Source: a virus. Taken from it: a DNA stretch of 64,000 nt. The notes under the pieces were generated by a model, which ran no database searches, was not told where the DNA came from, and saw only the letters and a list, made by a program, of their open reading frames with translations. Positions 30,001 to 56,866 of this stretch are shown here, piece by piece (within the stretch, counting starts at the first letter, position 1; every line of letters begins with the position of its first letter). A program made the translations under genes and the position numbers. The stretch spans positions 1 to 64,000 of IMG/VR virus record IMGVR_UViG_3300034108_001154; one strand, given 5' to 3'.

Positions 30001-33000
30001 CTTATCATCTTTACGTTTTACTGATAATAATGATTGGGATTATAATAGTTGGGCAGGATTAAAATTCATAAACGCATCTAAGAGAATTGTATTGGGTGTA
30101 GGGGGTAATGTTTTTACAGCAAACTCAGCACAAACTGGTAACTTATTGTTGGATAGAATTGATACAATGTATTTATTCGATACAACTTATTATTTAAACA
30201 CCGGTACTTCAAACTTAAACTCATTAACATTAGCTGGTAATTTAGTAGCAGCTCAAGTTAATACTGGGCAAGGATTAACCGAAGTTCATTTGATGAACCA
30301 AAATGTTAGAACTACTGATAGTGTAACTTTTGCAAATATAACTGGTAATACAATTTATGTAGGTGGTGGCACTACATATTTTATTAATAATGATATATCT
30401 CGATTAAATTATATAAATGCTAATGCTTTCGCACAAGAGCAAGGTAGTGTATTAAAAATAACATATCCAAATGGAGGTACATTAAATAATAGTACATCAT
30501 CCGTAACTGGAGCAATAAAGATACGACTTCCTCAATCGTGGACAAACACTATGATGGAGTTAAAAGTTCGTATTTACAATTATAGTGGAGATACTTATTG
30601 GGAATACTCAATGGGTGGATATAATTATTCACCATCAACATCTTGGATTAATACAAATGCAAGTGTTGCTGGGGCAGCTGGGGCACCTGCATATACTGTT
30701 AGATTTGCACATGATGGTACTTATTGTACAATATTCATCGGTGAATTAGCAACAACTTGGTCATACCCTAAAATAGTTGTTACTGAGTTTATTGGTGGAC
30801 ATTCAAACTTCGCTGTATCTCAATGGGATGGTGATTGGGCTCTATCATTTGAAACAACATCATTTGGTACTGTAACATCCACTAAAACTCCAACATTAAG
30901 AACTGGTAATTTTATAGCAGATGGTACAATAAGTGGTACATCGATAGATACTGGACAAGGTTCAACTGAAGTTCATTTAATGAACCAAAACATTCGTACA
31001 ACGGATGATGTTACTTTTTCTACGATAAGAGGTACTAATTTTAGAGCATCAAACGCGTATTACTTAGGTGAAAATAATTTTTATCTTAATTTAACAAATG
31101 GTGGTTGGTATTCTAATGTAAGGATTGCATCTGAAGTAGATATGAGGGCACCTATATTCTATGATACGGATAATACTGCATATTATACAAATCCTGCTGG
31201 ACTTTCTGTACTTAGCCATATCCAATTAGTAAATAACTGGGCTAACACTACTCCTAATGATGGTGCAATAAATATTAGAGGACAGTATCCATCTATGACA
31301 TTTAGAAATACTATATCCAATAATATGTGGTTAAGACATATGGATGGTAGTGGTGATATACAACATTATTTTGCATCTGGCGTTGATAGTACTTCTTGGA
31401 GTATAAGACACTCAATGTTTACAAATGGTAGATTCTTCTCAGCTGAAAGCATGAGAACACCAATATTTTATGATTCAGATAATACCGCATACTATTTAGA
31501 TGCAGCTAGTACTTCAAATATAAATGAAATAGTATCAGTAAGAGGGCAGTTTAGAAAAGCACAAACAAACAACAATTATACTACCGCTGCTTTATGGACT
31601 GAATCATATAGCACTACAACCACTGGTATTGCTTTTCACATTAGTGGTGTTGTTGGTAAGTATTTGGAAATGCGTACTGATGGTATTCTTTATTGGGAAA
31701 ATGAAAAAGTTTGGACAGGTAGTACAGATGGTGCTGGTTCTGGATTAGATGCAGATTTATTAGATGGTCAACAAGGGACATATTATGACCATAGAATATA
31801 TACTTCTACTGGAAATATTGCTGGTTCTTTTTTAGGAGGACATTATTCATCTGGGGGAACTGAAAAACCTAACTCAGCTACATTCGGAGCTGGTAAGTTA
31901 AAGGTAGCCATGCTTAGTAACGGAAACCTTGGATTTGGTGGAAGTTGGAATGATGTTCTATGGATGTCAACTTATAATGGTGGTGATGTTAAACAAAGTT
32001 ACGCAATTGTTGGAGATAAGTATGGTGATAACCTATGGTTCTCAAGACAAGCATTTGATTCTGCAACTTGGGGTACTGGTAGAAGATTGTGGCATAGTGG
32101 GGATACTACCATATCAACAACAGGTGATATGCGTTCTCCAATTTTCTATGATTCGGATGATACAACATATAGAATTGATGGAAATAGTACATCTGTTCTT
32201 AATAACTTAAATATTGCTGGAACTCTTACTGTAAATGGTACAATAAATTTAGGTAATGATTTCCAAATCGGTGATTATAAATATTTTGGAATCAATAACT
32301 TAGGTGCATCTGCAACTCAAGCTAGAAGATTTGAAGTTGCACGAATTGGTATTGATTTTAATGATTGGAACTCTGTTGGTTTATTTGAAGTTGAACTTTC
32401 GGAAAATTACTACGATAAAGGTTTAAGAAAAAGATATATAGTTTCTTATGGATATGTTTCTGCAGCATCAGTTCAATTAGTTGAAGCAAATGGTATAGGT
32501 TCAAATCACTTCCAAGTAACTATTGGTTCTGAAGTAGTTGTAAGTGGTGACCATAGATACATTCCTGTATATGTTGATGTTAGATATTACTCATCAGTTG
32601 ATGCTCTTATTAGAACTACACGAAGTATTACTACCAATACAAATAGTGCAATTGGTGCGGTTTATATTAACACATCACCTTCTGCAACTAACATTTCCGA
32701 TTTTACGGCAGATAGTATTGTATATCCAACTTCAGGTCAATTCGGTATTGCTGCACCAACATTCTACGATTCGGATAATACATCATATTATATAGACCCA
32801 TCTAATGGAGCAAATGGAATTTCTGCTAATTTACAGGGTAGAATTCAAGTTGGTACATTTAATAATTCTCAAACTAATACTGGTGAGGCTTGGATTGGTA
32901 GAGCATCTGATAGAGCAGCCGGTGTATTAACTGTACAATTAGGTGGTGGTGCAGGTAGATATTTAGAAGTAGTAGATAATGCTTGGACTACTGTTGAGTT

Positions 33001-36000
33001 TAGTGTAAATGATAGTGGTGTTGCTACTGCAGCAGCAAGTTTTAGAGCACCTATATTCTATGATTCGAATAATACATCATATTATTTAGACCCTACATCA
33101 ACAACATCGTTAAGAACTGTTGGTAGTTGGAGAAGTGATTCATCTACATGGGATGGTGAATTTAGTGGTAAGATTCAATATCATTCTAATAATTGGTATT
33201 TCCAAGCTGCTGGAGACTGGATTTGGAGAAATTCAGGTGGTAGTAACGTAATTTATGGTAACCAAAGTGGTGAATTGACTGCAACTGGGAACATGCGTTC
33301 ACCTATATTCTACGATTCTGATAATACTGGGTATTATACAAATCCAGCAGGAACATCTCGTATGAATGGAATTGCATTTGATGCAGCATCGCCTGTATAT
33401 AGTGTAACCGCTGGAACATCATATCAACAACATTTTCAAATTAGAGAAGCAGGTGCTAGTGGTGCAAATGGTTCGGCCATTGCATACGCACCATCAATTG
33501 GTTTCCATTGGAGTGGTGTAGTTGCATCCAATATTACAATGGAAGCAAGTGGTAGAATTTCAATAAGAAATAATCCGGGTACATCATATGAAAATTTGGT
33601 TGCTAACAATATGTACGCATATGCATTCTATGATGAAAATAATACTGGATATTACTTAGACCCTGCATCTACTTCTGTACTAAACGCAATTAGATTGGGT
33701 ACATCTGCAAATAATTCTACATTATCTGGAGCTGGTGATTGGGGTGTTAGATTTACTACAGACGTTGGATACATACAAATAGGACCTGCAAATAGTTCAT
33801 ATGCTCATATCTATACGGATAGAGGTAATTTCTATATGAACGTAAATGACCTTTATCTAAATGGAAACCTTGTACCCGCATTTGGATATAATAGAGGTAG
33901 TGGTAACTTATTTGCAGCAATTTATTATGATGCAAATAATACTAATTATTATATAGATGGAGCATCAACATCAAACCTAAATGATTTACAAACTGCGGGA
34001 AGAGTTGTAATTGGTGGTAACTTTAGTAATAACGCATACAATTCAGTAGGTTCTGCTAGATTACATTTTGGAGGAGGTAACTCTGATGCAAATGATAACT
34101 ATTACATAGGTACTAATATAGAAGGTTATGGTGGTTCATATACTAAATTAGATTTAAGATGGCATACTGGTATCCGTATGGGTGCACAACCTGGATATGG
34201 TGGTATTCGTTTTTATGATACTGAAGATTTAGGTACGCTTATATTCTCAATTGGTACTGGTGATGCACATGTTAGGGTAACTAATAATTTATATGTAAAT
34301 GGATACACTTATTTAGGAAATGGTAACGCTGATGAAACTCATATTAATGATACTTTAAGAGTTGGTGCAACCGATAGTGGTGATTCTCATTTCTATTTTG
34401 GAGAAGATTCATCATCTTGGTATGGTGACCATTGGTATTGGGATTCTGGATATAATGTTTATAGATATAGTAGATTCGCTGGAACTGATTCCCTAATTCA
34501 CTACCATGATACGAGAGATACTACTAGAATTACATATGCTAGAAATATTGTATTTGATGATTTCGGAAAAGGTATAGTTGGTAACTATTCAGCAGAGAGA
34601 TTACAATTGGTATTTGCTATGGGTGATTCATACAAACCAAATACGGCAGGTACATCAACGGCAAATATGTATGGTATTGGTTGGTCACATCCAAACGCAG
34701 GTGGATTAGGTGGAGCTAATAATCTTAATGACCACGGTTTATTGATTATCAATAATGGTACATTTAGAGCAGCAATTTCATCTAGAATTGTGGCATCTGA
34801 AGAAGTAAGAGGTACATTATTTAGAGATTACAATGATAGTGGGTATTATTTAGACCCTAATACAACTGGAATTTCTTTAAGAATAGGTGGAACTGTTCAT
34901 TCAGGTGGAGCATTTAGTAGTGATGGTTATTCATCATCATCACCAAACGTTGTGACACGAATAACTGCACCACAAGGAGCAGCATTTTCATCAGATGGTT
35001 CTACTGGAGCTATTAGAATTAAATTACCATTTAGGGGAAATAACCCTATGTGGACTATGAAGGTTCGAATTTATAATTACTCTACTAACCAAACATCAGA
35101 ATATCTATTAGGTAATTATGCTTATGACCAAGGTGGTTATAACTCATCTGCTACTTTTATAGGTGGAGCAAGTGCAACTGCACATACTGTAAGATTTGGT
35201 AATCAGGACGGAGTTGATTGTGTTTGGATAGGTGAAACAAATACTGGATGGAGTTATCCGGTAGTTAGTGTTATTGATTTTACATCTGGATTTAGAAGTT
35301 CAAACGCTGATTCACAATCTAGAAATTGGAATATAGCAGTAGTAACATCATTTGGTACAGTCCAAACTGCAATAACGCCTGAAATTAGATTATCTAATAC
35401 ATACGCTCCTACATTTAGAGCTGATACGGATATGAGGGCACCAATTTATTATGATACCAACACTGCGTATTATATAAATGGTGATGGTGCATCAAACCTA
35501 AATACTCTACAAACTTATTCATATCAAGGTAATGGTAACGTAGGTGGAACTGGAAACGCATCTTGGCATCCATCTGGTATCTATTCAGCTGGTTATAACT
35601 GGTTGTATGGTGGTATCAATATGAATGGTGGCACATTAGATGGAGCAGGTCCAATTTATGGTACTATATATTATGATAGAAATGATTCAGGATATTATGC
35701 AGACCCTGCATCAACATCTAATTTTTATAATTTAAATTTAACTGGAGCTAAACATACCTACCTTACTATAAACCCTGGTAACGGATGGGAAGCAATGGTT
35801 CGTTATATTGGTGGTAGTGGTAGTAGTTGGTATGTTGGTAAACGTACATCAACTCAATTGTTAGGTAGTACTGATGCATTCCATATGTATTCTGAAACTG
35901 CCGGTAGAACAGTTGGTGGATATGATACTGCTGGTAATCATTACGCATATGGTTCATCAAGAGCTACTATATTCTATGATATAGATGATACTACATATTA

Positions 36001-38794
36001 TATGAACCCCAATAGTAACACTTACTTATATGGTACATTTCAAGTAAATGGTGGACATGGGGATTCTCAAATTGGAGTTAGATTATTGTCTGGAAACAAT
36101 GGTGCTGGTGCAGGTGAAATTAATTTAAGAATGTGGGTATCTGAACCTGGTGTAACGTGGAACTGGGGTGGATTTGGATATAACGTAACTAATAATAATG
36201 GTTCACCAAACGGATTTGGTAGAATAAATACCGCACACGGACAGGCATATATGAGATTTAGTGATGGTGGTGATTTGTATTTCTATAATACAAATACATC
36301 TGGTACTAGAGTTACTAATATGGAAATGTATCCAAATAATACCGTATTATTTAACAACTACGCTACGGGTGGTAACTCATTAAGAGCACCAATATTTTAT
36401 GATTCGGATAATACGGGATACTATGGTGATTTTGCATCAACATCTCGTATAAACGCTATTAATTATGATAATTTATATTGGGCGGGAGATACGAGTTATG
36501 GTTTCATTGGTAGAAACGTATATGCTGATACTGTAAATGGTAGAGGTAGTGACCCGTTAGAATTAAACTATTATGATGGTGGTGATGTTTACATTGGACC
36601 TGGTGGTGGTAATAAAAATTTAAGAGCTAATCTTTACTATGATTATGCAAATACTGCATATTATTTAGACCCTAATGGAACTGCTAGATTATCATATGTA
36701 GTAGCAAATGGTGGTATCCGAATTGATGGAAATGAAAACCTTTACTTAGATAACAACTATGGACAATCAATTGTAGGTGTTTATACATCTGTTAGATATC
36801 AGGGTATATTTGCAATGGGTAATGCATATAAATTAGCAATTGATGGTACTGGTACTGGTAACTTATATGGATTATCTTGGTCACATCCTAATGCTGGAGG
36901 ACAAGCTGGATTCTTAAATGACCACGGTTTATTGGTAATGAACTATGGTACAACTTTTGCGGCAATATCATCACGTGGTTGGTTCAGAACTTCAGTTCAG
37001 GCACCTATATTCTATGATAATGATGATACTGGATACTATGGTAATTATGCAGGTGATAGAAGCACCAGCGTTAATGGATTTACCGCAAGAACAGTAGAAG
37101 GAACCAAAGGAACATGGAAATACAATATCCCAAGATTTATTCATACGGGCGACTCTAATTATTGGGTTGGAAGTATGGGTTGGGGTACAACTGACTTCAA
37201 CACTATGATGACATGGGGTAGTGGATTCATTGATTCTTGGTCAAACCCATCAAATCAACCATCTGGTACTTCACATTGGGTAGGTACTCAAGCATATCAC
37301 TACACCAATGCATACAATAGTGCATATGGTTGGCAGTTGGTAGGTGGTCCAATTGGAAATTTACGATTCCGTCAATCTTGGCCAAATGCTGGTACTTGGA
37401 GAACTGTACCTATGCTTGATGTGAATGATGGAAATAGTGGAGCAATGTATGCTGGAATTTATTATGATTCGGCTGATAGTGCATATTATGCAGACCCAGC
37501 ATCAACATCTCGTTTAAATATAACTAAGACTGCATTAAAAGCTCATAATGATATGAGTGGTTATGGAGAAGGAAACTGGGTTTCAGATTTCAATCGAACT
37601 CCAATAAGTTCATTTACGTTTGGTGAAGATAAATATAATGGTGGTCCATCTGGAACTTGGTGGTTCCAGGTAAATATGAGACATGCAAACTCAAGTAACT
37701 ATTGGGGAACTCAATTGGCATATGGATGGGAAGATAATGCAAATGAAATTTATCAAAGAAATATTACCGGAGGAAGTTTCAGCGGATGGGTTAGATATCT
37801 AAATTCAAACAACTATTCTGGTTATTCAAATTTCGGAACAGGTACAGTTTATGGTGGTATATATTACGATGGTAATAACTCTGGATACTATGGTGATTTT
37901 GCATCAACATCTCGTTTCAATACAACCATAACTGATACAACATACTTCGGTTCAGATACTAATAAAGGTAGAGCACAGGGATATGGTACTTGGTCAAATT
38001 CATTCCATAAAACGGCATACATGTCATTTGACTGGAACGCGAATTATGACACTTATTCAAATCATGGTATCGCATCTACTGATTTAAATGGTTCGTTTAG
38101 TGATTCGATGAGTATTAACTCATTTAATGATATCAACTTAAGATTAGATTCAAATGATAATAATGCAAACTCATATGTAAGAATACATGATAATACTACT
38201 GGCCAGTCAGTTTCCGTAGCATATATCGGACGAGAGAGTGGTAACCCTATTGCATATTTCAATAATAGAGTATATGGTAACGTATATTACCACAACAGTG
38301 ATACTGCATATTATTTGGCTCCGAATGGTACTTCCAGATTGAATAGAACAAACTATGATTATGTTTATTCTTATAACTGGGTTTACGCACAGGGTGATGT
38401 TATTGCATACTACTCTGATGAAAGATTAAAAACTAAAGTTGGTTCTATTGAAAACGCTTTAGATAAAATCTCTAAATTGAATGGATTCTATTATGTTGAA
38501 AATGATTTAGCAAAATCATTCGGATACAAAAACGAAAAAAGACAATTAGGTTTATCAGCACAAGAAGTACAAGAAGTTTTACCTGAAATTGTGACATTAG
38601 CACCATTTGATACGGAAACTGATAAAAATAATAATATTGTAGGTTCCAAATCTGGAGAAGATTACTTAACTGTAAACTACGCTAAAGTAGTTCCTCTTTT
38701 AGTTGAAGGTATTAAAGAACAAACCGAAATAATCAATTCTCAGCAAAAACAAATTGATGAATTAAAAGAAATGATTAAATCTTTGATAAAATAA
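27011..38794 (+). CDS. Giant 3927-aa tail fibre: collagen-like shaft, 18 FYDxDNTxYY repeats, S74 chaperone
   Basis: Residues 1-290 form a stalk with two GDGSN(L/I)T motifs. Residues about 295-816 are collagen-like GTS/GSS triplets. Next come TLNGTAPNATVESNLRFDG and TTTLNVGDNIITLNADIG segments and three copies of TGQGxTEVHLMNQNxRTxD. From about residue 1378 a tip region of roughly 2400 residues carries about 18 copies of a (F/Y)YDxxNTxYYxDPxxTSxLN motif, with variable, Trp/Tyr/Asn-rich receptor-type domains between. The C-terminus is a peptidase S74 intramolecular chaperone: YSDERLKTKVG, then LGLSAQEVQEVLPE, then a coiled-coil tail. By homology, autocleavage before Ser3802 (Ser3802/Lys3807) would release 126 residues after trimer folding. 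Probably the main host-recognition fibre. Confidence 0.85.
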   Translation: MKYAGKNPNGINQVSQSLLSVDVNGVQQLTVSTASLDINTKLSVTNGVLASSYTGSAFSGSKFVGSQFSGSFSGSFSGDGSNLTKIPFEGLTADAQSKIQSGDGTARISNNKLSINVNTDITGSLLTTGTVSASFLAGDGSNITNISAASIGDINRLKSGSATATISPNKGLEVNVGIVTEKYLGVSGSAQIAGNLNVDGTTTLKSLNVAGTITATELKTTYISSSIIFSSGSNKFGDQSSDTHEFTGSLRVKDTIQIPSYTSNPVSGKVGEIYYNTSDTNIYRWTGLIWEPAAGTAGTSGTSGTSGTSGTSGTSGTSGTSGSSGSSGASGSSGSSGSSGSSGTSGTSGTSGSGGTSGSGGSSGTSGSSGTRGTSGSSGTSGTSGTSGSSGSSGSSGTSGTSGTSGTSGSSGSSGFGSSGTSGSGGTSGTSGTRGTSGSSGTSGSSGTSGSSGISGSSGTSATSGSGGTSATSGSSGSSGSSGTSGSSGSSGTSGTSGTRGTSGTSGTSGTSGISGSSGSSGSSGTSGTSGISGSSGSSGSSGSSGTSGTSGTRGTSGTSGIDGVVGDGGTSGSSGSSGSSGTSGSSGSSGTSGTSGSSGTNSTAGTGGTSGSSGSSGSSGTSGTSGTSGSSGTSGSSGSSGTSGSSGSSGTSGTSGTSGINGLIGSSGTGGTAGTGGTSGSSGSSGTSGTSGTSGTSGTSGTSGTRGTAGSGGSSGSSGSSGTSGTSGTSGSSGSSGTSGTSGSSGTSGTSGSSGTSGTRGTAGSGGSSGTSGSSGTSGSSGTSGSSGSSGTSGTSGTSGTSGTSGSSGTSGSSGVLALTGTTDNGVITLNGTAPNATVESNLRFDGTTLAVTGNATISGDLTVSGTTTYINTTTLNVGDNIITLNADIGAATAPTENAGIEVKRGNAATKQFYWNESTDRWYADSDLQSAGNLYGTQIDTGQGLTEVHLMNQNVRTSDTITFARLNLTTTGNDYYFAANGLTMTSISTGETIWRNLSSLRFTDNNDWDYNSWAGLKFINASKRIVLGVGGNVFTANSAQTGNLLLDRIDTMYLFDTTYYLNTGTSNLNSLTLAGNLVAAQVNTGQGLTEVHLMNQNVRTTDSVTFANITGNTIYVGGGTTYFINNDISRLNYINANAFAQEQGSVLKITYPNGGTLNNSTSSVTGAIKIRLPQSWTNTMMELKVRIYNYSGDTYWEYSMGGYNYSPSTSWINTNASVAGAAGAPAYTVRFAHDGTYCTIFIGELATTWSYPKIVVTEFIGGHSNFAVSQWDGDWALSFETTSFGTVTSTKTPTLRTGNFIADGTISGTSIDTGQGSTEVHLMNQNIRTTDDVTFSTIRGTNFRASNAYYLGENNFYLNLTNGGWYSNVRIASEVDMRAPIFYDTDNTAYYTNPAGLSVLSHIQLVNNWANTTPNDGAINIRGQYPSMTFRNTISNNMWLRHMDGSGDIQHYFASGVDSTSWSIRHSMFTNGRFFSAESMRTPIFYDSDNTAYYLDAASTSNINEIVSVRGQFRKAQTNNNYTTAALWTESYSTTTTGIAFHISGVVGKYLEMRTDGILYWENEKVWTGSTDGAGSGLDADLLDGQQGTYYDHRIYTSTGNIAGSFLGGHYSSGGTEKPNSATFGAGKLKVAMLSNGNLGFGGSWNDVLWMSTYNGGDVKQSYAIVGDKYGDNLWFSRQAFDSATWGTGRRLWHSGDTTISTTGDMRSPIFYDSDDTTYRIDGNSTSVLNNLNIAGTLTVNGTINLGNDFQIGDYKYFGINNLGASATQARRFEVARIGIDFNDWNSVGLFEVELSENYYDKGLRKRYIVSYGYVSAASVQLVEANGIGSNHFQVTIGSEVVVSGDHRYIPVYVDVRYYSSVDALIRTTRSITTNTNSAIGAVYINTSPSATNISDFTADSIVYPTSGQFGIAAPTFYDSDNTSYYIDPSNGANGISANLQGRIQVGTFNNSQTNTGEAWIGRASDRAAGVLTVQLGGGAGRYLEVVDNAWTTVEFSVNDSGVATAAASFRAPIFYDSNNTSYYLDPTSTTSLRTVGSWRSDSSTWDGEFSGKIQYHSNNWYFQAAGDWIWRNSGGSNVIYGNQSGELTATGNMRSPIFYDSDNTGYYTNPAGTSRMNGIAFDAASPVYSVTAGTSYQQHFQIREAGASGANGSAIAYAPSIGFHWSGVVASNITMEASGRISIRNNPGTSYENLVANNMYAYAFYDENNTGYYLDPASTSVLNAIRLGTSANNSTLSGAGDWGVRFTTDVGYIQIGPANSSYAHIYTDRGNFYMNVNDLYLNGNLVPAFGYNRGSGNLFAAIYYDANNTNYYIDGASTSNLNDLQTAGRVVIGGNFSNNAYNSVGSARLHFGGGNSDANDNYYIGTNIEGYGGSYTKLDLRWHTGIRMGAQPGYGGIRFYDTEDLGTLIFSIGTGDAHVRVTNNLYVNGYTYLGNGNADETHINDTLRVGATDSGDSHFYFGEDSSSWYGDHWYWDSGYNVYRYSRFAGTDSLIHYHDTRDTTRITYARNIVFDDFGKGIVGNYSAERLQLVFAMGDSYKPNTAGTSTANMYGIGWSHPNAGGLGGANNLNDHGLLIINNGTFRAAISSRIVASEEVRGTLFRDYNDSGYYLDPNTTGISLRIGGTVHSGGAFSSDGYSSSSPNVVTRITAPQGAAFSSDGSTGAIRIKLPFRGNNPMWTMKVRIYNYSTNQTSEYLLGNYAYDQGGYNSSATFIGGASATAHTVRFGNQDGVDCVWIGETNTGWSYPVVSVIDFTSGFRSSNADSQSRNWNIAVVTSFGTVQTAITPEIRLSNTYAPTFRADTDMRAPIYYDTNTAYYINGDGASNLNTLQTYSYQGNGNVGGTGNASWHPSGIYSAGYNWLYGGINMNGGTLDGAGPIYGTIYYDRNDSGYYADPASTSNFYNLNLTGAKHTYLTINPGNGWEAMVRYIGGSGSSWYVGKRTSTQLLGSTDAFHMYSETAGRTVGGYDTAGNHYAYGSSRATIFYDIDDTTYYMNPNSNTYLYGTFQVNGGHGDSQIGVRLLSGNNGAGAGEINLRMWVSEPGVTWNWGGFGYNVTNNNGSPNGFGRINTAHGQAYMRFSDGGDLYFYNTNTSGTRVTNMEMYPNNTVLFNNYATGGNSLRAPIFYDSDNTGYYGDFASTSRINAINYDNLYWAGDTSYGFIGRNVYADTVNGRGSDPLELNYYDGGDVYIGPGGGNKNLRANLYYDYANTAYYLDPNGTARLSYVVANGGIRIDGNENLYLDNNYGQSIVGVYTSVRYQGIFAMGNAYKLAIDGTGTGNLYGLSWSHPNAGGQAGFLNDHGLLVMNYGTTFAAISSRGWFRTSVQAPIFYDNDDTGYYGNYAGDRSTSVNGFTARTVEGTKGTWKYNIPRFIHTGDSNYWVGSMGWGTTDFNTMMTWGSGFIDSWSNPSNQPSGTSHWVGTQAYHYTNAYNSAYGWQLVGGPIGNLRFRQSWPNAGTWRTVPMLDVNDGNSGAMYAGIYYDSADSAYYADPASTSRLNITKTALKAHNDMSGYGEGNWVSDFNRTPISSFTFGEDKYNGGPSGTWWFQVNMRHANSSNYWGTQLAYGWEDNANEIYQRNITGGSFSGWVRYLNSNNYSGYSNFGTGTVYGGIYYDGNNSGYYGDFASTSRFNTTITDTTYFGSDTNKGRAQGYGTWSNSFHKTAYMSFDWNANYDTYSNHGIASTDLNGSFSDSMSINSFNDINLRLDSNDNNANSYVRIHDNTTGQSVSVAYIGRESGNPIAYFNNRVYGNVYYHNSDTAYYLAPNGTSRLNRTNYDYVYSYNWVYAQGDVIAYYSDERLKTKVGSIENALDKISKLNGFYYVENDLAKSFGYKNEKRQLGLSAQEVQEVLPEIVTLAPFDTETDKNNNIVGSKSGEDYLTVNYAKVVPLLVEGIKEQTEIINSQQKQIDELKEMIKSLIK
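27893..29458 (+). repeat. Collagen-like Gly-X-Y block C
   Basis: About 520 residues of Gly triplets, mainly GTS and GSS. Rare GSGG, GTRG, GFG, GIDGVVGDGG and GTNSTAGTGG segments punctuate the run. Unlike block B there is no fixed superrepeat. Codon choice for identical triplets is scrambled. Confidence 0.9.
31147..38340 (+). repeat. About 18 copies of FYDSDNTAYYLDPxxTSxLN
   Basis: The motif recurs at 70-250 residue spacing along the tip half of the last giant fibre. It always precedes an N/R-rich turn and a new beta-rich segment. Variants include YYDANNTNYYIDGASTSNLN and YYHNSDTAYYLAPNGTSRLN. It probably marks trimer joints between exchangeable binding domains. Confidence 0.85.
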
Positions 38795-43132: not shown

Positions 43133-46100
43133 ATGGCAGATAGCAACAGTCTACTTAAAGAAAGAGTTGAGATACTAAAACAAATTAAGCAAATTCAGCT
43201 TGAGCAGGGAAAAGATGCCGCTAAGTTGGATGAAACTTATATTAAATTAAAAAGTAGATTAGAGGGAATAGTAGGTACTTTAAAGACATTTGTTGATAAT
43301 CAAAATAAAACAGTACAGGGTGCTGTTACATTAGAGCAAGAAGCTAAATCGTTGGGTACAATATACTCAGCTGTTTCTAATGAAATGCGAACTCAAGCGA
43401 TATTACAAAGAGATATAGCAACTAGTGTATCAGACCAATTAGCAAGAGGTAGTGAAATTTCTGAAAGAAATAAAACATCATCTGATATTGTAACTGATAT
43501 ATTATCACAATATAACGAACAATCATCGATAGCAAAAGAGTTAGCTCAACTAACCGCTGATGATATTGTTCAAAAAGCTGAATTAGAAGATAAATTAAAT
43601 TCAATTAGTGACCAAATTCAAGAGCAAGTTAATGCATTGGATAAGAGAACTAATGTAGCTAAACAATTTCTAAGTATTCAAGGGCAAATAGAAGCATCCA
43701 TTGAATCTCAGGTTGTAGCTGCAAGGGATATGGCATCTCTAACACAAGAACAAAAAGATATATTAGAAGAACAGGCAACTGCGTTTGATGCTATAAAGAA
43801 AAAAATAGGAGCATTAGGTTCAACCTTAACAACATTTTTACTAAGACCTCAAGCAGCTATTGGAGCATTAGTAATTGCAACTGGTGCGTTCGCCAATAAA
43901 TTTGGTGATATGAATAAAGAGTTGGGGCAATCATTCTCACAAGGATTGAACTCTTCAACTACATCCGCAACTGCATTAGGATTTATATTTGAAGATACTG
44001 CTAGTACTGTAAAATCATTAGCATCTGAATTCGGAGATGTATCTGCTGCAACATTCCAAACACAAGCTAATGTTGGGTTAATAGCTGCTAATATGGGTAT
44101 AACAAATACCGAAGCAGTTGGATTAATGGGTTCATTTGCAAGGTTGAATGGTGGTTCAACCGAAATAGCAGCAAATATGATTAAAACCACTCAGGAGTTT
44201 GCAAACCAAAATGGAATTATACCTGCCGATTTAATGGCAGATTTAGCTGGTTCAGCTGAAGAGTTTGCATTATTTGGAAAAGATGGTGGTAAAAATATAT
44301 TACAAGCAGCAGGATACGCTAAGAAATTAGGTGTAAATATGAGTACCATTAGTGGTGTTGCTGATAACCTATTGGATTTCGAATCATCTATTACTAAGGA
44401 ATTAGAATTAGGTGCAATGCTTGGTAAAGATATCAACTTAGATAGAGCTAGAGCATTAGCATATGAAGGTGATATGCAAGGTGCAATGAATGAAACCTTA
44501 AGTGCATTAGGTGGTATTGAAGCATTCAACAAAATGGATTACTTCCAAAAGAAAGCATCCGCTGATTTATTAGGAGTTTCGGTTGCAGAATTGGAAAAAA
44601 TGGCTACAAACCAAGAGAATGCCAATACAATGGGTGCTGCTGTAAATGAAACGTTTAGTGCTATGGGGGAAACCCTTAACATGGGATTAAATAAATATTT
44701 AGGTACTGGATTAGAGGGGCTTGGTGGGATGATTACAATGAGTGGTCAACTTGGCCAAGGGTTTAAATCATTGGGCATCGATATGGGTGGTATAGTTACT
44801 AAATCAGCTGATTTCTTAAAGAACTTAGTTAAGATGGGTGCACAAAAAGTAGCTGGTTTATTTGGTGGGGGTGCTACTGATGCTGTTGCTGGTGGAGCTA
44901 AAGATAAACTTTTAGCTGGTGTTGGTGATAAAGCAAAAAGTATAAAAACACCGGATACCGATGCTGGGGATAAGATGGGTAAAATGGGTAAGGGTATTAA
45001 GGCAAATGATTTAATTAAAGGAGCCGCAGCTATGTTAATTATGGCAGCCGCATTATATGTAGCAGCTAAAGCATTCCAAGAATTTGCAACTGTTAAGTGG
45101 GAAGATGTTGGAAAGGGTTTAGTTGGGGTAGCTGGTTTGGCCGCAATTGCTTATGTATTAGGAAAAGCACAAGGTGATATGATAAAAGGAGCATTGGCAG
45201 TAGCAATATTAGGATTAGCATTAGTACCATTTGCATACGCAATGAGTTTAATAAGTGGATTGGACATTGGTTCAGTAATAGCAGCTGGAGCTGGTTTAGT
45301 AATATTTGGAGCAGCTGCATTCGCATTAGGTTCATTAATGATGACTGGTGCAGGAGCATTTATATTTGGAGCTGGTTTATTAGCATTAGCTGGATTAGGA
45401 ATTGCAATGATGACATTGGGTGCTGGTTTATTAGTTGCCGCAGCTGGATTTAACGCAATTGGTGGTTCTATGGGAAGTGTAATATCATCAATATCACAAA
45501 TCGGAGATGTATTGGCTGGTATATTCGCATTTGTAGGACCAATGGCTATGTTATCACTTTCATTGGGGGTACTATCATTCGCATTGATAGGATTTGGTAT
45601 GGCTGGTTTAATAGCCGCACCTGGTTTACTTCTTGTGGGAGCTGGTATAATGATGGTTGGTGCTGGATTAACACTAATATCAACTGCACTTACTACATTA
45701 AGTGGTGGATTAGGAAGTGTGTTAGGAATACTTCCACAAATAGGAAGTGTATTGAGTGGAATGTTTGAATATGCTGGACCGATTGCTATGTTATCACTTT
45801 CATTAGGTACATTATCGTTAGCATTGATGGGATTCGGATTAGCCGGTTTAATTGCCGCACCTGGTTTACTTCTTGTGGGAGCTGGTATAATGTTGGTTGG
45901 TACTGGATTAAGTTTAATAACTACTTCACTAGCTACATTAGGTGGTGGATTGACAAGTGTTATAACGGCAATGTCAACGGTTGGTAGTGTTATTGGAGAA
46001 ATGTTCCAATACATTGCACCAATAGCCGCTCTATCTCTTGCGTTAGTAGGATTAGCTGGAGCATTGACTTTAGTAGGTGTAGCTGGTATAGCTGCATTGC

Positions 46101-50422: not shown

Positions 50423-50794
50423 ATGAATTTGGATAGATATAAAAATATAATTAAATTACCATTAGAGTATAGGCCGGTAAGGGTAGTTACGCATTTACCG
50501 GAACCAAGTGATTTTGATTATAAAAAAGGGTATATAACCAGATACTTTTTACAAAAGGCAAATGATTTTGATTCACCTATATATGAAGTTAAACAAAGTG
50601 CTATGATGAAATACGCTTCTAATAGTTTTTATACTGTTGCTTCATTAGATTGGAGATTAACAGGAACTAAAGAAGAGATTAAAGCTTCAAATTCATCATC
50701 ACTTAAATTAACATCACTTAAATTACCAAAGATAGCACTATATTTACCAAATCTTATACAATTTATTAAATATAATTTGGATAATTCAAAATAA
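50423..50794 (+). CDS. Small conserved baseplate-linked protein, unknown function
   Basis: A 123-aa protein. The motif YRPVRVVTHLPEPSDFDYKK, then GYITRYFLQKANDFDSPIYEV, recalls a small protein found beside baseplate genes in T4-like marine phages (P-T-x-x-DY-x-x-G-(F/Y)-I-x-RYF-x-x-x-ND pattern). The C-terminal third is Lys/Leu rich. It starts 3 nt after the hub stop, so it is translationally tied to the hub. It is followed by the host-type promoter of the next unit. A wedge or hub accessory role is likely, but not shown. Confidence 0.65.
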   Translation: MNLDRYKNIIKLPLEYRPVRVVTHLPEPSDFDYKKGYITRYFLQKANDFDSPIYEVKQSAMMKYASNSFYTVASLDWRLTGTKEEIKASNSSSLKLTSLKLPKIALYLPNLIQFIKYNLDNSK

Positions 50795-50826: not shown

Positions 50827-51804
50827 GTGAAAATAAGTGTTATAGTTCGTACATACAACCGACCTGATTTATTAAAAGAAGCATTGGCATCTGTCCAACT
50901 TCAATCTCATACGAATTGGGAGGTTATTATTTTTGATGATTCAGCATCTGATGTTAATTTTAACATTTATAAAGATTTTAAATCACAAAATCCTAAAAAT
51001 GATGTTTTATACCACACATCAAATACTCCATACGATTTATTTAAGAATTCTTGGAAAATTGGAGTAAAACTTGCTAATGGTGAATTGATTGTACGATTGG
51101 ATGATGATGATTTATTGGCAGAAGATACATTAGAGTACTTATCAAACACATATACACAACATACTGAGTTAGATTTCTCATATGGTTCAGCTGTATTCTT
51201 TGAGAATACTACATTACAACAAATAAATCAAACTCAAACTCCATTAGAGGCCCCAAAGACAAGAGATTTATGGACAGCATATACAATTCCTAATAATCAC
51301 CCTTGGACTCATCCTTGGAGTTGGACAACTAACTATTATGATGAACCAAAGCATTTTACATCTATAATTCATTGTAGTAAAGCAAATATTATGTGCATTT
51401 ATCACACATATGTAATGAGAACCTCATCTTTACTAAAAGTAATCGATAAATTTGATGTAACTTCTAATTTCGTTGATGATTTGGAAGTTATGGGTAGTTT
51501 AGATTATTTAGGATTAGCACACACTTCAATAAAACGAATTTTGACTTATGCTAGAGTACATAATGAAGGTAGGGTAACTGATACTGGTTTAAAAGTAAAT
51601 GGAACTGATTTGTGGAACGATATATTCCATATCAGAGATAAAGTTGACTATTTAAGAACTGAAGGATTTCAATCCAACATATATCTACCTAAATTAGATG
51701 GAAATTTTAATGAAGGTAGTATAACATCAGCACATCAGCACTATTTTTCAAATTATATCTTTAAAATAAAACAAATATCTAATAAATTTGGTAAATTCAA
51801 ATAA
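50827..51804 (+). CDS. Glycosyltransferase family 2 (GT-A)
   Basis: A 325-aa protein from a GTG start. The N-terminus KISVIVRTYNRPDLLKEALAS and the following WEVIIFDDSASD form the nucleotide-sugar binding half of a GT-A fold. The metal-binding DxD motif is in LANGELIVRLDDDDLL near residue 94. FSYGSAVFFEN and the His/Trp-rich acceptor part follow (NHPWTHPWSWTT), then DDLEVMGSLDY, with the likely catalytic acid. It transfers a sugar from a nucleotide donor. Possible targets are phage DNA bases, virion protein Ser/Thr (the collagen-like fibres are an obvious candidate) or host surface glycans; none is shown. It has its own host-type promoter, so it is probably made earlier than the tail genes. 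Confidence 0.85.
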   Translation: MKISVIVRTYNRPDLLKEALASVQLQSHTNWEVIIFDDSASDVNFNIYKDFKSQNPKNDVLYHTSNTPYDLFKNSWKIGVKLANGELIVRLDDDDLLAEDTLEYLSNTYTQHTELDFSYGSAVFFENTTLQQINQTQTPLEAPKTRDLWTAYTIPNNHPWTHPWSWTTNYYDEPKHFTSIIHCSKANIMCIYHTYVMRTSSLLKVIDKFDVTSNFVDDLEVMGSLDYLGLAHTSIKRILTYARVHNEGRVTDTGLKVNGTDLWNDIFHIRDKVDYLRTEGFQSNIYLPKLDGNFNEGSITSAHQHYFSNYIFKIKQISNKFGKFK

Positions 51805-51822: not shown

Positions 51823-53088
51823 ATGGTTATAGTAGAGTCACAAACTGAAGTAACGGAGTTTTTAAATTTATGGAATACTAAGACATCCATAATCATTCCA
51901 ATATGGTCTGATTTGGAAAAGCATCCTATACATAACAAATTATCATTTCTATATGTTAGATTTGATGATAAGGACTTTATTGTACCATTTAACCATATTG
52001 ATTGTAAGACTCCTACGATTGATTTGACTACTTCTAAGGAAGCAAAATGGGTAATCAACAAAAAGGGATTACTTCAATGTAATTTGGGTTTACAAAACCT
52101 AAATGATTTACAATCTGATGCATTTTTTCAACACAATAAATTATATCCGATAGGTTTTGAGGACCAACCATTTATAACTCACTATACCCGAAGAGGTATA
52201 CGAGATAATTTGGGCAAGATAGCACCTATTATGAAATGGGGTGAGTATCTTAGAGTGATATCTTCTACTTTTACTATTGGTATAGAGAATGATTGGGTTG
52301 GAGATTCGATGATTCCCCTTCTTTCAGATATAGAACATTTTGGTGTTCGGGTCGATAGGGAAAAATTTCTTGATAGATGGCCTCAAGCTTCTAAACATTT
52401 ACACAACGATATCGTTTACACCCAATACAACCCATACACCATTACATCCCGTCCATCCAACCGATTTGGTGGAATCAACTTCTCTGCCCTAAACAAATCC
52501 GATGGTACGAGAGAGGTGTTTATCCCAAAACCAAACCACATATTCCTACAAATGGATTATGATGCGTATCATCCACGTATTATTGGTAAGTTGATTGGTT
52601 ACGAATTACCCAAAACATCCGTACACCAATGGTTAGCTGACCAATATGGTTGTGAGTATGGTGAGGGTAAAGGAATTACGTTCCAATTACTATATGGTGG
52701 TATACCTGAGGAGTTTGAGCAAATACCTTATTATAAGGGTGTTAAGGAGTTCATTGAGAAGTTGTGGGATAAGAGTACCAAAGCTGGATATCTTCAAACA
52801 CAACATAGGAGAATCCCCTTAGATTGGATTGAAGGAAACAATCCGCAAAAATTGTTCAACTACCTACTTCAAGCGACCGAAACCGAATTAAATATGGAAA
52901 GGGTAGCTAAAATATTGGAATTTATCAAAGATACCGATATAGAACTTTCCCTATACACATACGATTCATTCTTATTTTCATATCCTGCTAATTCCGATGT
53001 ATCTCAAGCTAAAAAGTTAAAAGAGATAGCTGAAGGTGGTGGATTCCCCATTAATGCTAGCTGGGGAACTGATTACTCGAAACTTTAA
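51823..53088 (+). CDS. Compact family-A DNA polymerase-like protein with altered active site
   Basis: A 421-aa protein; only the palm/fingers part of Pol I is clear (residues about 205-421). SRPSNRFGGINFSAL equals the primer/template region. Motif A is IFLQMDYDAYHPRIIGKLIGY with catalytic Asp245. Motif B is KGITFQLLYGG with Lys283 and Tyr291, the same eight-residue spacing as Lys758/Tyr766 of Pol I. Motif C is LYTYDSFLFSYP with Asp381. Departures from Pol I: Glu710 becomes His250, Arg754 becomes Tyr279, and the HDE of motif C becomes YDS. The N-terminal 200 residues might be a worn-down 3'-5' exonuclease. Its role could be repair, gap filling, primer-independent synthesis or none. Its place amid tail genes and its own promoter suggest an accessory enzyme rather than the replicase. 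Confidence 0.75.
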   Translation: MVIVESQTEVTEFLNLWNTKTSIIIPIWSDLEKHPIHNKLSFLYVRFDDKDFIVPFNHIDCKTPTIDLTTSKEAKWVINKKGLLQCNLGLQNLNDLQSDAFFQHNKLYPIGFEDQPFITHYTRRGIRDNLGKIAPIMKWGEYLRVISSTFTIGIENDWVGDSMIPLLSDIEHFGVRVDREKFLDRWPQASKHLHNDIVYTQYNPYTITSRPSNRFGGINFSALNKSDGTREVFIPKPNHIFLQMDYDAYHPRIIGKLIGYELPKTSVHQWLADQYGCEYGEGKGITFQLLYGGIPEEFEQIPYYKGVKEFIEKLWDKSTKAGYLQTQHRRIPLDWIEGNNPQKLFNYLLQATETELNMERVAKILEFIKDTDIELSLYTYDSFLFSYPANSDVSQAKKLKEIAEGGGFPINASWGTDYSKL

Positions 53089-53097
53089 TATTTATAT
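53086..53097 (+). promoter_or_regulatory. Late-type promoter box (TAATATTTATAT) before the 669-aa gene
   Basis: TAATATTTATAT at 53086-53097 includes the stop codon of the polymerase-like gene and ends about 28 nt before the chosen ATG at 53126. Confidence 0.5.
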
Positions 53098-53125
53098 AAA
53101 ATATTGTTTCAGAGAATCAGAAATT

Positions 53126-55135
53126 ATGGAGAAAAACGACTTCCTTTTAGACTTATTGCATGAGTTAGCCTATCGTTCCGATGAAGGTTATCCTATATTG
53201 AGTAAACAATCACACATTTATCTTATATCTGAGATATTAGATGAGTGGGGATATACTCATATAAAAAATGAACTTATTCAAAATCTTACTGAAGCTAGTG
53301 AAGAGAAACACTATTCATCACCCGCACTTAATAAGACCGTTAAATACAAAGATAGAGATGGTAAGGATAAAGAAGGTTTAGTTGGTTCATTACTTAGATT
53401 AGCTAAAGACCAACCTGGTAGAGAAGCGGCTGAAAGAGCATTACCTGCTGATGGAACACCTGAAAGAGAAAAAATAAATAATGAATTAGGTGGTGAAGGA
53501 CAACCTAATAGAAATATAGAAAAAGAAAAGGAAGATAAAGCTGATGTTGAAGCTGGAAAGGCTGGCGAAGCACCTGCTGAAGCGGAACCACCACAACCTG
53601 CTGTATTTGCTGGACAGGGTGGTGATTCATATAGAGCTGGGTTATCACCTAATGACCCTGCGTATCAACCAACTAAGGATACTGCTGAAAAAGAAATGGC
53701 ATCTCCTAAGAGAGAAATAGCTGGTAAAGATAAAACACTTACTAAAATAAATTCAATTGAAAGTGAGGAGTTTAATAAAAGTATTCAACCAAGCGATGAG
53801 GAATTTGATATTAAAAATAAAAAAATAGCAAATCCGATTCCACCTCAACCATATAAGTTACCAGCATCATTAATTGAAAATCCTAAATTTCCTAAAAAGT
53901 ATTTAACTGCATTGGAAAGAATGATGAATACAAAACCAACTGGAGATGGTACAAAATGGACACATTATAGTGATTTACCTGGAGGACAAGGCCAAATATC
54001 TGCACAGGCCGGTGAGTTAATGACGATGATGGGTACATCTATGAATGCTGATGAATTTAATGAATTTACTGATTCATTATCAACGCATGAGGCTGAGTTA
54101 ATAAAAAACAATCCAAAATTAAAAACTGAAGGAAGTCGTATTATAACAAAGAGTTGGATTCAATCCGCTAGAAATAATAGACAGGCTATTTTAAATAGAA
54201 TTACAAAAGAATACCCAAACTCAAAAATAGTTGCAACTGCTTGGGATACTAAAGATGATGTTGAATCATTGGGATTATCAGATTATGGTAAAAACAAAGG
54301 ATTCTCAACTGATATGTATATTAAGATAAAAACTGAAAATGGTGATGAGATATTAGATGAGGTTTCTTTGAAAAAATCAACTGAAGTAAACTTTTTAAAT
54401 TCTGGTGCTGGTAAATTTATGGAATGGGATTCTGATTTACCAGATAACATAAACCAAAATGTTTATAAAGAAAATCAAAGAGCTAGATTAAGTGAAACTG
54501 GTACAAACCTAAAATCAGAAATTGAAAAATTATTAGCTAGTGGTTCAGATGAGTCTGTAAAGTTAAAAACTATATTTGATGAAAAGGGAACTACATTTGC
54601 AGATGCATTAAATGACCTTATTAAAGGTAAAGGAAGTAGAGCTAAATCTAAAGTGATATTAGCAAGTATTAAAACATTAGCAGATGGTGGAAATGATATA
54701 GCTAAACAATATATTATGGAAAATGATAAAATCCATAAAGAATTCCAATCAAATGCAATAAAGGCAATTACGGAAAATCCAAAAATGAAAGAAGGTATGT
54801 TAAATGAGATTCGTTCTGAATTTCCACTCAAAGCTGTTTCTGATGGTGAAGAATCTATGGCAATTGGTTCAAATTCATTAGATAAAGCTATTATGAAAAA
54901 CATATTTGGAACATCTGATTACGATATGATAAAAGAAAAGTTGAGTGCTGAAACAGGTCCTCCTCCATTTTTAGGATATCAAGCTGAAGTGGGTGGAAAG
55001 ATAATTCCATTGGCTGAAATTAAAGTTAGAGAAGATGGTGTTGGGTATGGTGGACAGATTAAATTTGAAATGACATTGGATAAACGATTTGCTAAAGTAT
55101 TGAAAACAGCAAATGATGAAGTTTACAAATCATAA
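53126..55135 (+). CDS. 669-aa conserved phage protein, possible virion-packaged or nuclease-like
   Basis: The start is set at ATG 53126 because the open frame upstream runs through the polymerase-like gene and the promoter box, and MEKNDFLLDLLHELAYRSDEG is a natural N-terminus. Residues about 100-260 are low-complexity (Glu/Ala/Pro/Lys), a flexible linker. Residues about 260-669 are ordered; GFSTDMYIKIKTENGDEI, then LDEVSLKKSTEVNFLNSGAG, then KFMEWDSDLP are striking. From memory, similar segments occur in large T4-like phage proteins of unknown function. The D-x(10-15)-E-V-S-L-K arrangement recalls the (D/E/S)xK site of PD-(D/E)xK nucleases, but the fold is not established. Could be an internal virion protein delivered with DNA. 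Confidence 0.7.
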   Translation: MEKNDFLLDLLHELAYRSDEGYPILSKQSHIYLISEILDEWGYTHIKNELIQNLTEASEEKHYSSPALNKTVKYKDRDGKDKEGLVGSLLRLAKDQPGREAAERALPADGTPEREKINNELGGEGQPNRNIEKEKEDKADVEAGKAGEAPAEAEPPQPAVFAGQGGDSYRAGLSPNDPAYQPTKDTAEKEMASPKREIAGKDKTLTKINSIESEEFNKSIQPSDEEFDIKNKKIANPIPPQPYKLPASLIENPKFPKKYLTALERMMNTKPTGDGTKWTHYSDLPGGQGQISAQAGELMTMMGTSMNADEFNEFTDSLSTHEAELIKNNPKLKTEGSRIITKSWIQSARNNRQAILNRITKEYPNSKIVATAWDTKDDVESLGLSDYGKNKGFSTDMYIKIKTENGDEILDEVSLKKSTEVNFLNSGAGKFMEWDSDLPDNINQNVYKENQRARLSETGTNLKSEIEKLLASGSDESVKLKTIFDEKGTTFADALNDLIKGKGSRAKSKVILASIKTLADGGNDIAKQYIMENDKIHKEFQSNAIKAITENPKMKEGMLNEIRSEFPLKAVSDGEESMAIGSNSLDKAIMKNIFGTSDYDMIKEKLSAETGPPPFLGYQAEVGGKIIPLAEIKVREDGVGYGGQIKFEMTLDKRFAKVLKTANDEVYKS

Positions 55136-55204: not shown

Positions 55205-55600
55205 ATGAAAACACAATTATTGTGTACATTTACAACGAAAGATGGATTACAACAAACTCTACAAAATATAAGAGAGACATACGTTATTGTCTATAATTAT
55301 ATTTATATTTTACAGAACAAAACTGATTTATCCGAATTGTACATAACGTACAATATCAATACCGAATATAAACCAACATATCCATTAGAGGATACAATTC
55401 TTATTCATAGAAAAAAAGAATCAAATACCTTATACACAATTAATGCTTTAAACCAATTGGTGAAAGAAGAAAATAATGGAGTATTGGATAACAAATTTAT
55501 GTTGGATTGGGCCAAATTTAAGAACTCAATAATACTTACCAATACAGATGGTACAAAACGAATACAAACTAGAGTATTTGAGGTTATAGAATTTAAATAA
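55205..55600 (+). CDS. Conserved 131-aa T4-like phage protein, unknown function
   Basis: Sequence pattern: MKTQLLCTFTTKDGLQQTL, YIYILQNKTDLSELYITYNI, DTILIHRKKESNTLYTINALNQL, then LDWAKFKNSIILTN and VFEVIEFK. I recall a closely similar small protein in cyanophage-type myoviruses, always without a function. It has an alpha/beta composition, with no signal peptide and no membrane segment. The HRKKESNTLYTINALN stretch is the most conserved in memory and might be nucleic-acid binding. It lies between the 669-aa protein and the SpeD-like gene. Confidence 0.7.
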   Translation: MKTQLLCTFTTKDGLQQTLQNIRETYVIVYNYIYILQNKTDLSELYITYNINTEYKPTYPLEDTILIHRKKESNTLYTINALNQLVKEENNGVLDNKFMLDWAKFKNSIILTNTDGTKRIQTRVFEVIEFK

Positions 55601-56044: not shown

Positions 56045-56866
56045 ATGTTAGTTAAAAAAGGTGATAATAACGAAAATGTAAAAAAATTACAAGCAAAATT
56101 AGGTTTAACCGCTGATGGAGTTTTTGGTGCTGGTACTGAATCAGCTGTAAAAGCTTGGCAAACAAAAAATGGATTAACTGCTGATGGTATCGTTGGTGAT
56201 GCTACTTGGGAAAAGATGGGATTGGGTGCAAGTACTCCAACTCCTTCTGTTGCTGTACCAGCATCTTCATTTAAATTGGCAGCTCTTAAAGGACACGTTC
56301 CTGATTCTGTAATTGCTCAAATTCCAGACACTGCTTCTAAATTCAATATTACAACTCCTCTAAGATTAGCTCATTTCTTAGCACAATGTGGACACGAAAG
56401 TGGTGGATTCAAAGCCGTTACTGAGAATGTTAACTATTCAGCAGATGGATTAGTAAAAATCTTCGGAAAATACTTTAATTCAACAACTGCAGCTGCATAT
56501 GCTAGAAACCCTGAAAAGATTGCATCTAAAGTTTACGCATCAAGAATGGGTAATGGTGATGAAGCATCTAAAGACGGATTTAAATTTCGTGGACGTGGTT
56601 ATATTCAATTAACTGGTAAATCTAACTATACTAACTTCGCTAAATTCATTGGTGAAGATACTGTTGCAAATCCTGATTTGGTAGCAACTAAATATCCATT
56701 AGCTTCTGCTGCATTTTTCTTTGATTCAAATAAACTTTGGTCTATTTGTGATAAAGGTTTTGATGATGCTACTGTAACATCGGTAACTAAAAGAGTAAAT
56801 GGTGGTACTATTGGATTAGCTGATAGAATCAAACACTTCAAAGAATACTATAACTTATTAAAGTAA
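56045..56866 (+). CDS. Endolysin: peptidoglycan-binding domain plus GH19 muramidase/chitinase-like domain
   Basis: A 273-aa protein. Residues 1-60 are a PG_binding_1 domain (KKGDNNENVKKLQAKLGL, DGVFGAGTESAVKAWQ, DGIVGDATWEKMG). A Pro/Ser/Thr linker follows (about 61-75). Residues 85-273 are a glycoside hydrolase 19-type lysozyme: LAHFLAQCGHESGGFKAV with the likely catalytic Glu, then FRGRGYIQLTGKSNY and SAAFFFDSNKLW. No signal peptide, so release across the inner membrane would need a holin. A holin-like gene lies at 60443. It cleaves the sugar backbone of peptidoglycan at the end of infection. Confidence 0.9.
   Translation: MLVKKGDNNENVKKLQAKLGLTADGVFGAGTESAVKAWQTKNGLTADGIVGDATWEKMGLGASTPTPSVAVPASSFKLAALKGHVPDSVIAQIPDTASKFNITTPLRLAHFLAQCGHESGGFKAVTENVNYSADGLVKIFGKYFNSTTAAAYARNPEKIASKVYASRMGNGDEASKDGFKFRGRGYIQLTGKSNYTNFAKFIGEDTVANPDLVATKYPLASAAFFFDSNKLWSICDKGFDDATVTSVTKRVNGGTIGLADRIKHFKEYYNLLK

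Follow-up and report, generated by a model that had tools for sequence, protein, structure and literature searches.

A nearly thumb-less divPolA1 polymerase of a large phage carries a family-wide non-canonical active-site signature and is genetically linked to a small conserved gene

The gene at 51823..53088 (+ strand) of the window analysed here, a stretch of 64,000 nucleotides that is part of a 143-kb virus record, encodes a compact family-A polymerase-like protein of 421 aa that is a member of divPolA1, a family already named. The reading we favour, to which we give a probability of about 45% as a whole, is that this protein is an accessory DNA polymerase that lacks proofreading and serves to fill gaps or to synthesize DNA during recombination, as the second polymerase of a large T4-like phage in which PolB remains the replicase. 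The protein has lost several residues that mark canonical PolA enzymes, and the replacements recur throughout its family.

Pfam DNA_pol_A matched the 421-aa reading frame weakly (E 1.3e-4, 21.5 bits, below the curated cut-off of 34.3) and PHROG 17 'DNA polymerase' matched it clearly (E 5.5e-16). Comparison with canonical PolAs by hhalign gave a probability of 98.5% (E 2.5e-15), and hmmsearch against the Klenow sequence gave E 2.6e-10. Judged from the sequence, the resemblance to PolA is thus far above chance. Moreover, the two profile alignments, which are independent of each other, place all the key residues named in the initial annotation identically.

Both alignments match Asp245, Asp381 and the Lys283/Tyr291 helix to Asp705, Asp882 and Lys758/Tyr766 of E. 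coli Pol I. The catalytic pair is therefore correctly placed, as had been proposed for this protein. Motif A (52555..52572, + strand) runs from D245 (Asp705) to H250 (Glu710), a His that is invariant in the family. The fingers helix (52657..52695, + strand) carries Y279 (Arg754), K283 (Lys758), F287 (Phe762) and Y291 (Tyr766), and motif C (52960..52968, + strand) reads Y380-D381-S382 for His881-Asp882-Glu883. Further aligned pairs are R252 with Arg712, N346 with Asn845 and Q350 with Gln849. Over the 15 Pol I positions compared (668, 705, 710, 712, 734, 754, 758, 762, 766, 845, 849, 852, 881, 882 and 883), the window protein has R-D-H-R-H-Y-K-F-Y-N-Q-E-Y-D-S and E. coli Pol I has R-D-E-R-H-R-K-F-Y-N-Q-A-H-D-E. 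The canonical PolA marks Glu710, Arg754 and His881 are absent, their places being taken by His, Tyr and Tyr, and the predicted exchange of Glu710, Arg754, His881 and Glu883 for His250, Tyr279, Tyr380 and Ser382 is borne out. In Pol I, Glu710 is the steric gate against ribonucleotides and Arg754 contacts the incoming triphosphate. The set that contacts the minor groove of template and primer (R668, N845 and Q849) is kept in the window protein, and its fingers are shortened, with 38 residues from motif A to Lys283 versus 53 in E. coli. All together, these results support the initial view: the enzyme is compact and PolA-like, its catalytic core is conserved, and the contacts that it makes near the incoming nucleotide are altered.

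As far as aligned homologues can tell, the His/Tyr/Tyr/Ser replacements are a family-wide signature and not swaps in one protein. Viral contigs contained 48 close relatives, and a profile search of viral contigs returned at least 585 divPolA1 loci. Across 90 distinct sequences, taken from a first large search whose patterns fixed Y380 and S/A382 in motif C, there was no exception at D245, H250, K283, F287, Y291, R210, Q350, E353, Y380 or D381; the Arg754 position held Y, V, T, I, L, A or Q and never R, and the Glu883 position held S or A. A set free of this bias was obtained by retrieving 68 divPolA1s through the neighbouring gene D131, without polymerase patterns. These proteins, about 25-41% identical to the window protein, again showed no exception at D245, H250, K283, Y291, Q350, Y380 and D381, and the added Glu beside Gln849 (E353) was common to all but one of them. 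Close homologues with canonical residues, which would have spoken against the initial annotation, were looked for in both sets: canonical Glu710, His881 or Glu883 occurred in none of the 90 + 68 sequences, and Arg occupied the Arg754 position in 4/68 of the D131-retrieved set. That His is not seen at the Glu710 position of canonical PolA is a statement based on four sequences and general knowledge. The sampled homologues group into a single clade, separate from the canonical PolAs (split support 1.0), and gp1 of Flavobacterium phage immuto falls inside the same clade as the window protein.

We also obtained an AlphaFold2 model from an alignment of 53 sequences (pLDDT 93.5, pTM 0.90), which resembles Klenow and Taq and is closest to Bacillus Pol I. 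The match to Bacillus Pol I extends over the whole length of the model: VIA aligned 394 of its 421 residues, from 1 to 421, with Bacillus residues 301-875 (Z 27.0, rmsd 3.9), and the best Foldseek E was 1.4e-19. The thumb is nearly deleted. In the profile alignments its landmarks are about 20 residues apart versus about 107 in E. coli Pol I, the remnant between them corresponds to residues 179-197 (52357..52413, + strand), and the length of this remnant ranges from 0 to 23 residues across the family. The N-terminal region (residues 1-178; 51823..52356, + strand), delimited from the whole-model structural match, resembles a degenerate 3'-5' exonuclease. Because it superposes within the whole-length Pol I match, it is most simply regarded as a degenerate exonuclease domain; hhalign of residues 1-178 yielded no residue-level exonuclease assignment, and candidate acids such as D30 vary among homologues. 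Within this region H34, H58, D60 (D/E) and D95 are strongly conserved. The initial annotation had seen neither a 5' nuclease nor a clear proofreading domain. The former is indeed absent from the 421-aa protein, a separate 5' nuclease being encoded downstream in the same genome (PF02739, E 1.2e-31); the latter statement needs to be amended, since residues 1-178 superpose on Pol I in a manner consistent with a degenerate exonuclease.

Downstream of divPolA1 lie genes for SSB, UvsX/RecA, the 5' nuclease, DnaB helicase, PolB, clamp and clamp loader. The order polymerase, D131, SSB, RecA, 5' nuclease, DnaB holds even for the most distant relatives, and phage immuto has it too. In the arrangement usual among 97 loci, a hub gene is followed by a 123-aa gene, divPolA1, (a variable gene), D131, ..., SSB, RecA, 5' nuclease and DnaB. 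The 123-aa gene, conserved and with no assigned function (50423..50794, + strand), is upstream of divPolA1 in 81/97 loci, and a family-2 glycosyltransferase gene, a variable insertion (50827..51804, + strand), is directly upstream in 12/97. In the clade of the window, a large uncharacterised gene (53036..55135, + strand) separates divPolA1 from D131; its reading frame was called from 53036, but translation more likely begins at a Met near 53126. This gene is absent in several distant relatives, where divPolA1 and D131 adjoin.

D131 itself is a conserved gene of 131 aa with no assigned function (55205..55600, + strand), whose product carries the motif HRKKxSNTxYTINALN. Among close relatives it is 82-87% conserved, against 65-70% for the polymerase. 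It was present in six of 50,697 phage records, exactly the six with divPolA1. When D131 was searched on its own, divPolA1 was found upstream in 44/44 loci whose upstream DNA spans at least 4.8 kb and in 65/69 of those with at least 1.5 kb, mostly within 100 bases; in the four remaining loci the upstream DNA is shorter than 2.5 kb, so that the polymerase can escape notice behind an intervening gene. The structural model of D131 was confident (pLDDT 93.5), convincing structural relatives were found neither with Foldseek (best E 0.14) nor with VIA (best Z 6.2 over 64 residues). Matches to PHROG and Pfam families did not rise above noise. The genetic linkage suggests that D131 may be a partner of divPolA1; it could instead have come from common descent of the operon, with no physical partnership between the two.

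The virus record encodes a full-length PolB that has both its exonuclease and its polymerase domain, and the genes for the clamp and the clamp loader come next; PolB also occurs in most long records of relatives, and PolC (PF07733) was not found in the record of the window. Loss of the replicase is ruled out by this intact PolB. Toprim_2 (PF13155) had no match in the 143-kb record. Using a profile of the primases of relatives, a DnaG-type primase was detected in a 270-kb record that shares a stretch of 17,263 identical bases with the window, as well as in seven other long records; the four that lacked one are partial records of 131-148 kb. Since the 270-kb record has a primase, the 143-kb record is most likely just incomplete. 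A primase role for divPolA1 is thus disfavoured, a DnaG-type primase being present in the longer record of the same virus.

Several other features were observed along the same DNA. D131 is adjoined by a gene for an S-adenosylmethionine decarboxylase-like phage protein (55627-56022; PF02675, E 5.8e-12), beside which lies a GH19/peptidoglycan-binding lysin (56045-56866). Outside the window, the virus record encodes a DruA-like protein between the sliding clamp and clamp loader genes (83094-84314; PF14236, E 3.2e-19) and two similar tandem proteins of 255 and 267 aa that look Mom-type acyltransferase-like by eye (74960-76921). Within the window, a presumed tape-measure gene contains two direct repeats of about 217 bases that are 82% identical (45495-45951). 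Two giant reading frames of 3994 and 3927 aa (12952-24936 and 27011-38794), whose products contain GSFSGSF-type repeats, probably encode fibre or adhesin proteins, and the long antisense reading frames opposite them look like composition by-products.

The divPolA1 proteins were described by Yutin et al. (2024, Virol J 21:200; PMC11348598) in 14 phages including immuto, with an intact palm, a truncated thumb and an exonuclease inactivated by replacement of all catalytic aspartates, in genomes that also encode a regular DNA polymerase of family A, B or C and have replication genes downstream; in the literature searched, the name occurs only in that article and its preprint. The window protein shares with the published members the truncated thumb, the second genome-encoded polymerase, the downstream replication genes and probably the degenerate exonuclease region, and it is homologous over its length to the published immuto gp1 (29% identity); it belongs to a different, larger phage clade. 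Neither the His/Tyr/Ser substitutions nor D131 are discussed in the text of Yutin et al. (PMC11348598). In place of PolB, immuto encodes a canonical PolA of 777 aa in which Glu710, Arg754 and His881 are retained, which argues that the odd residues are a trait of divPolA1 rather than of the polymerases of the phage lineage generally. The divPolA2 of barbaviruses is likewise an extra, thumb-less PolA-like protein beside PolB; it is set apart, by the description in that paper, through an unrelated N-terminal globular domain and a variable neighbourhood (PMC11348598). Among canonical enzymes, the large fragment of E. coli or Bacillus Pol I has the palm, the fingers and the active-site aspartates in common with the window protein, whose thumb is about 87 residues shorter, in which four key residues are replaced and which lacks the 5' nuclease domain. 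The nearest canonical PolAs in the phage collection (tblastn) are family-A polymerases of mycobacteriophages, of the same fold and about 25% identical, which keep Glu710, Arg754, His881 and Glu883, unlike the window protein.

How might such a protein work? Catalytic and primer-contact residues are kept in the 90 + 68 homologues down to about 25% identity, as would be expected of an active enzyme. We thus propose that divPolA1 would be an active, template-directed polymerase of low processivity and without proofreading which, judging from its gene neighbourhood, may close the short gaps that primer removal or recombination leaves behind. It would act together with the separate 5' nuclease like parts of a split Pol I, D131 might stand in for the missing thumb by helping it to grip DNA or nucleotide, and PolB would stay the replicase beside it. 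Two points count against this proposal: having lost Arg754, Glu883 and the thumb, the protein should bind nucleotide and DNA less well, and, to our knowledge, T4 fills its gaps with no enzyme of this type. The same losses would fit a catalytically weak or structural component of the replisome that kept the fold and gave up synthesis; this is very unlikely, however, given that both metal-binding aspartates and the equivalents of Lys758, Tyr766 and Gln849 persist without exception in all 90 + 68 sequences. A rather unlikely alternative is that divPolA1 extends D-loops or synthesizes across lesions, on recombination intermediates or damaged templates, together with the adjacent RecA/UvsX and SSB. 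Indeed, these are its closest conserved known neighbours after D131, the fingers are shortened (38 residues against 53), and no working proofreading domain is evident in our model and alignments or in the published description (PMC11348598). The neighbourhood is, however, equally compatible with lagging-strand gap filling, and no lesion-specific feature was recognised in divPolA1.

The initial annotation had suggested changed substrate use, namely ribonucleotides, modified dNTPs or template-independent addition, and an enzyme of this kind could be a maker of primers or an RNA polymerase. The substitutions count in favour of this: an invariant His takes the place of the Glu710 gate, an invariant Tyr that of His881 and Ser or Ala that of Glu883. 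T7 RNA polymerase, which has a related palm, likewise has Ser after the motif C aspartate; there, the Glu710 position is occupied by Gly, Arg627 (the equivalent of Arg754) and the motif C His are retained, and an N-terminal domain binds the promoter. No promoter-binding domain was found in the 421 aa of the window protein, its gate residue is a bulky His and not Gly or Ala, it keeps the residues for reading the template-primer duplex, and a DnaG-type primase is encoded by the same virus. The suggestion thus found no positive support, and we consider it improbable. It is also hard to believe that divPolA1 is the true replicase, which stays while the 'regular' polymerase of family A, B or C, serving another role, is exchanged. 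The replication context of divPolA1 is conserved and that of the regular polymerase variable (Yutin et al., PMC11348598), but the PolB of this genome has both its domains and is followed by clamp and clamp loader, and divPolA1 is almost thumb-less and without evident proofreading. Finally, a bolder proposal, which we think rather unlikely, joins two claims: divPolA1 and D131 would make an undescribed two-part polymerase in which D131 replaces the lost thumb, and the fixed His/Tyr/Ser set would confer a nucleotide or primer preference unlike that of any characterised family-A enzyme.

What is new here is the abundance of divPolA1, with at least 585 loci in viral contigs versus 14 published phages, together with the fixed, non-canonical signature of its active site and its tight linkage to D131. 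Why large phages keep a second, thumb-less PolA thus becomes a directly testable two-protein question. If D131 restores DNA binding, the pair would be a natural minimal polymerase with its thumb supplied in trans.
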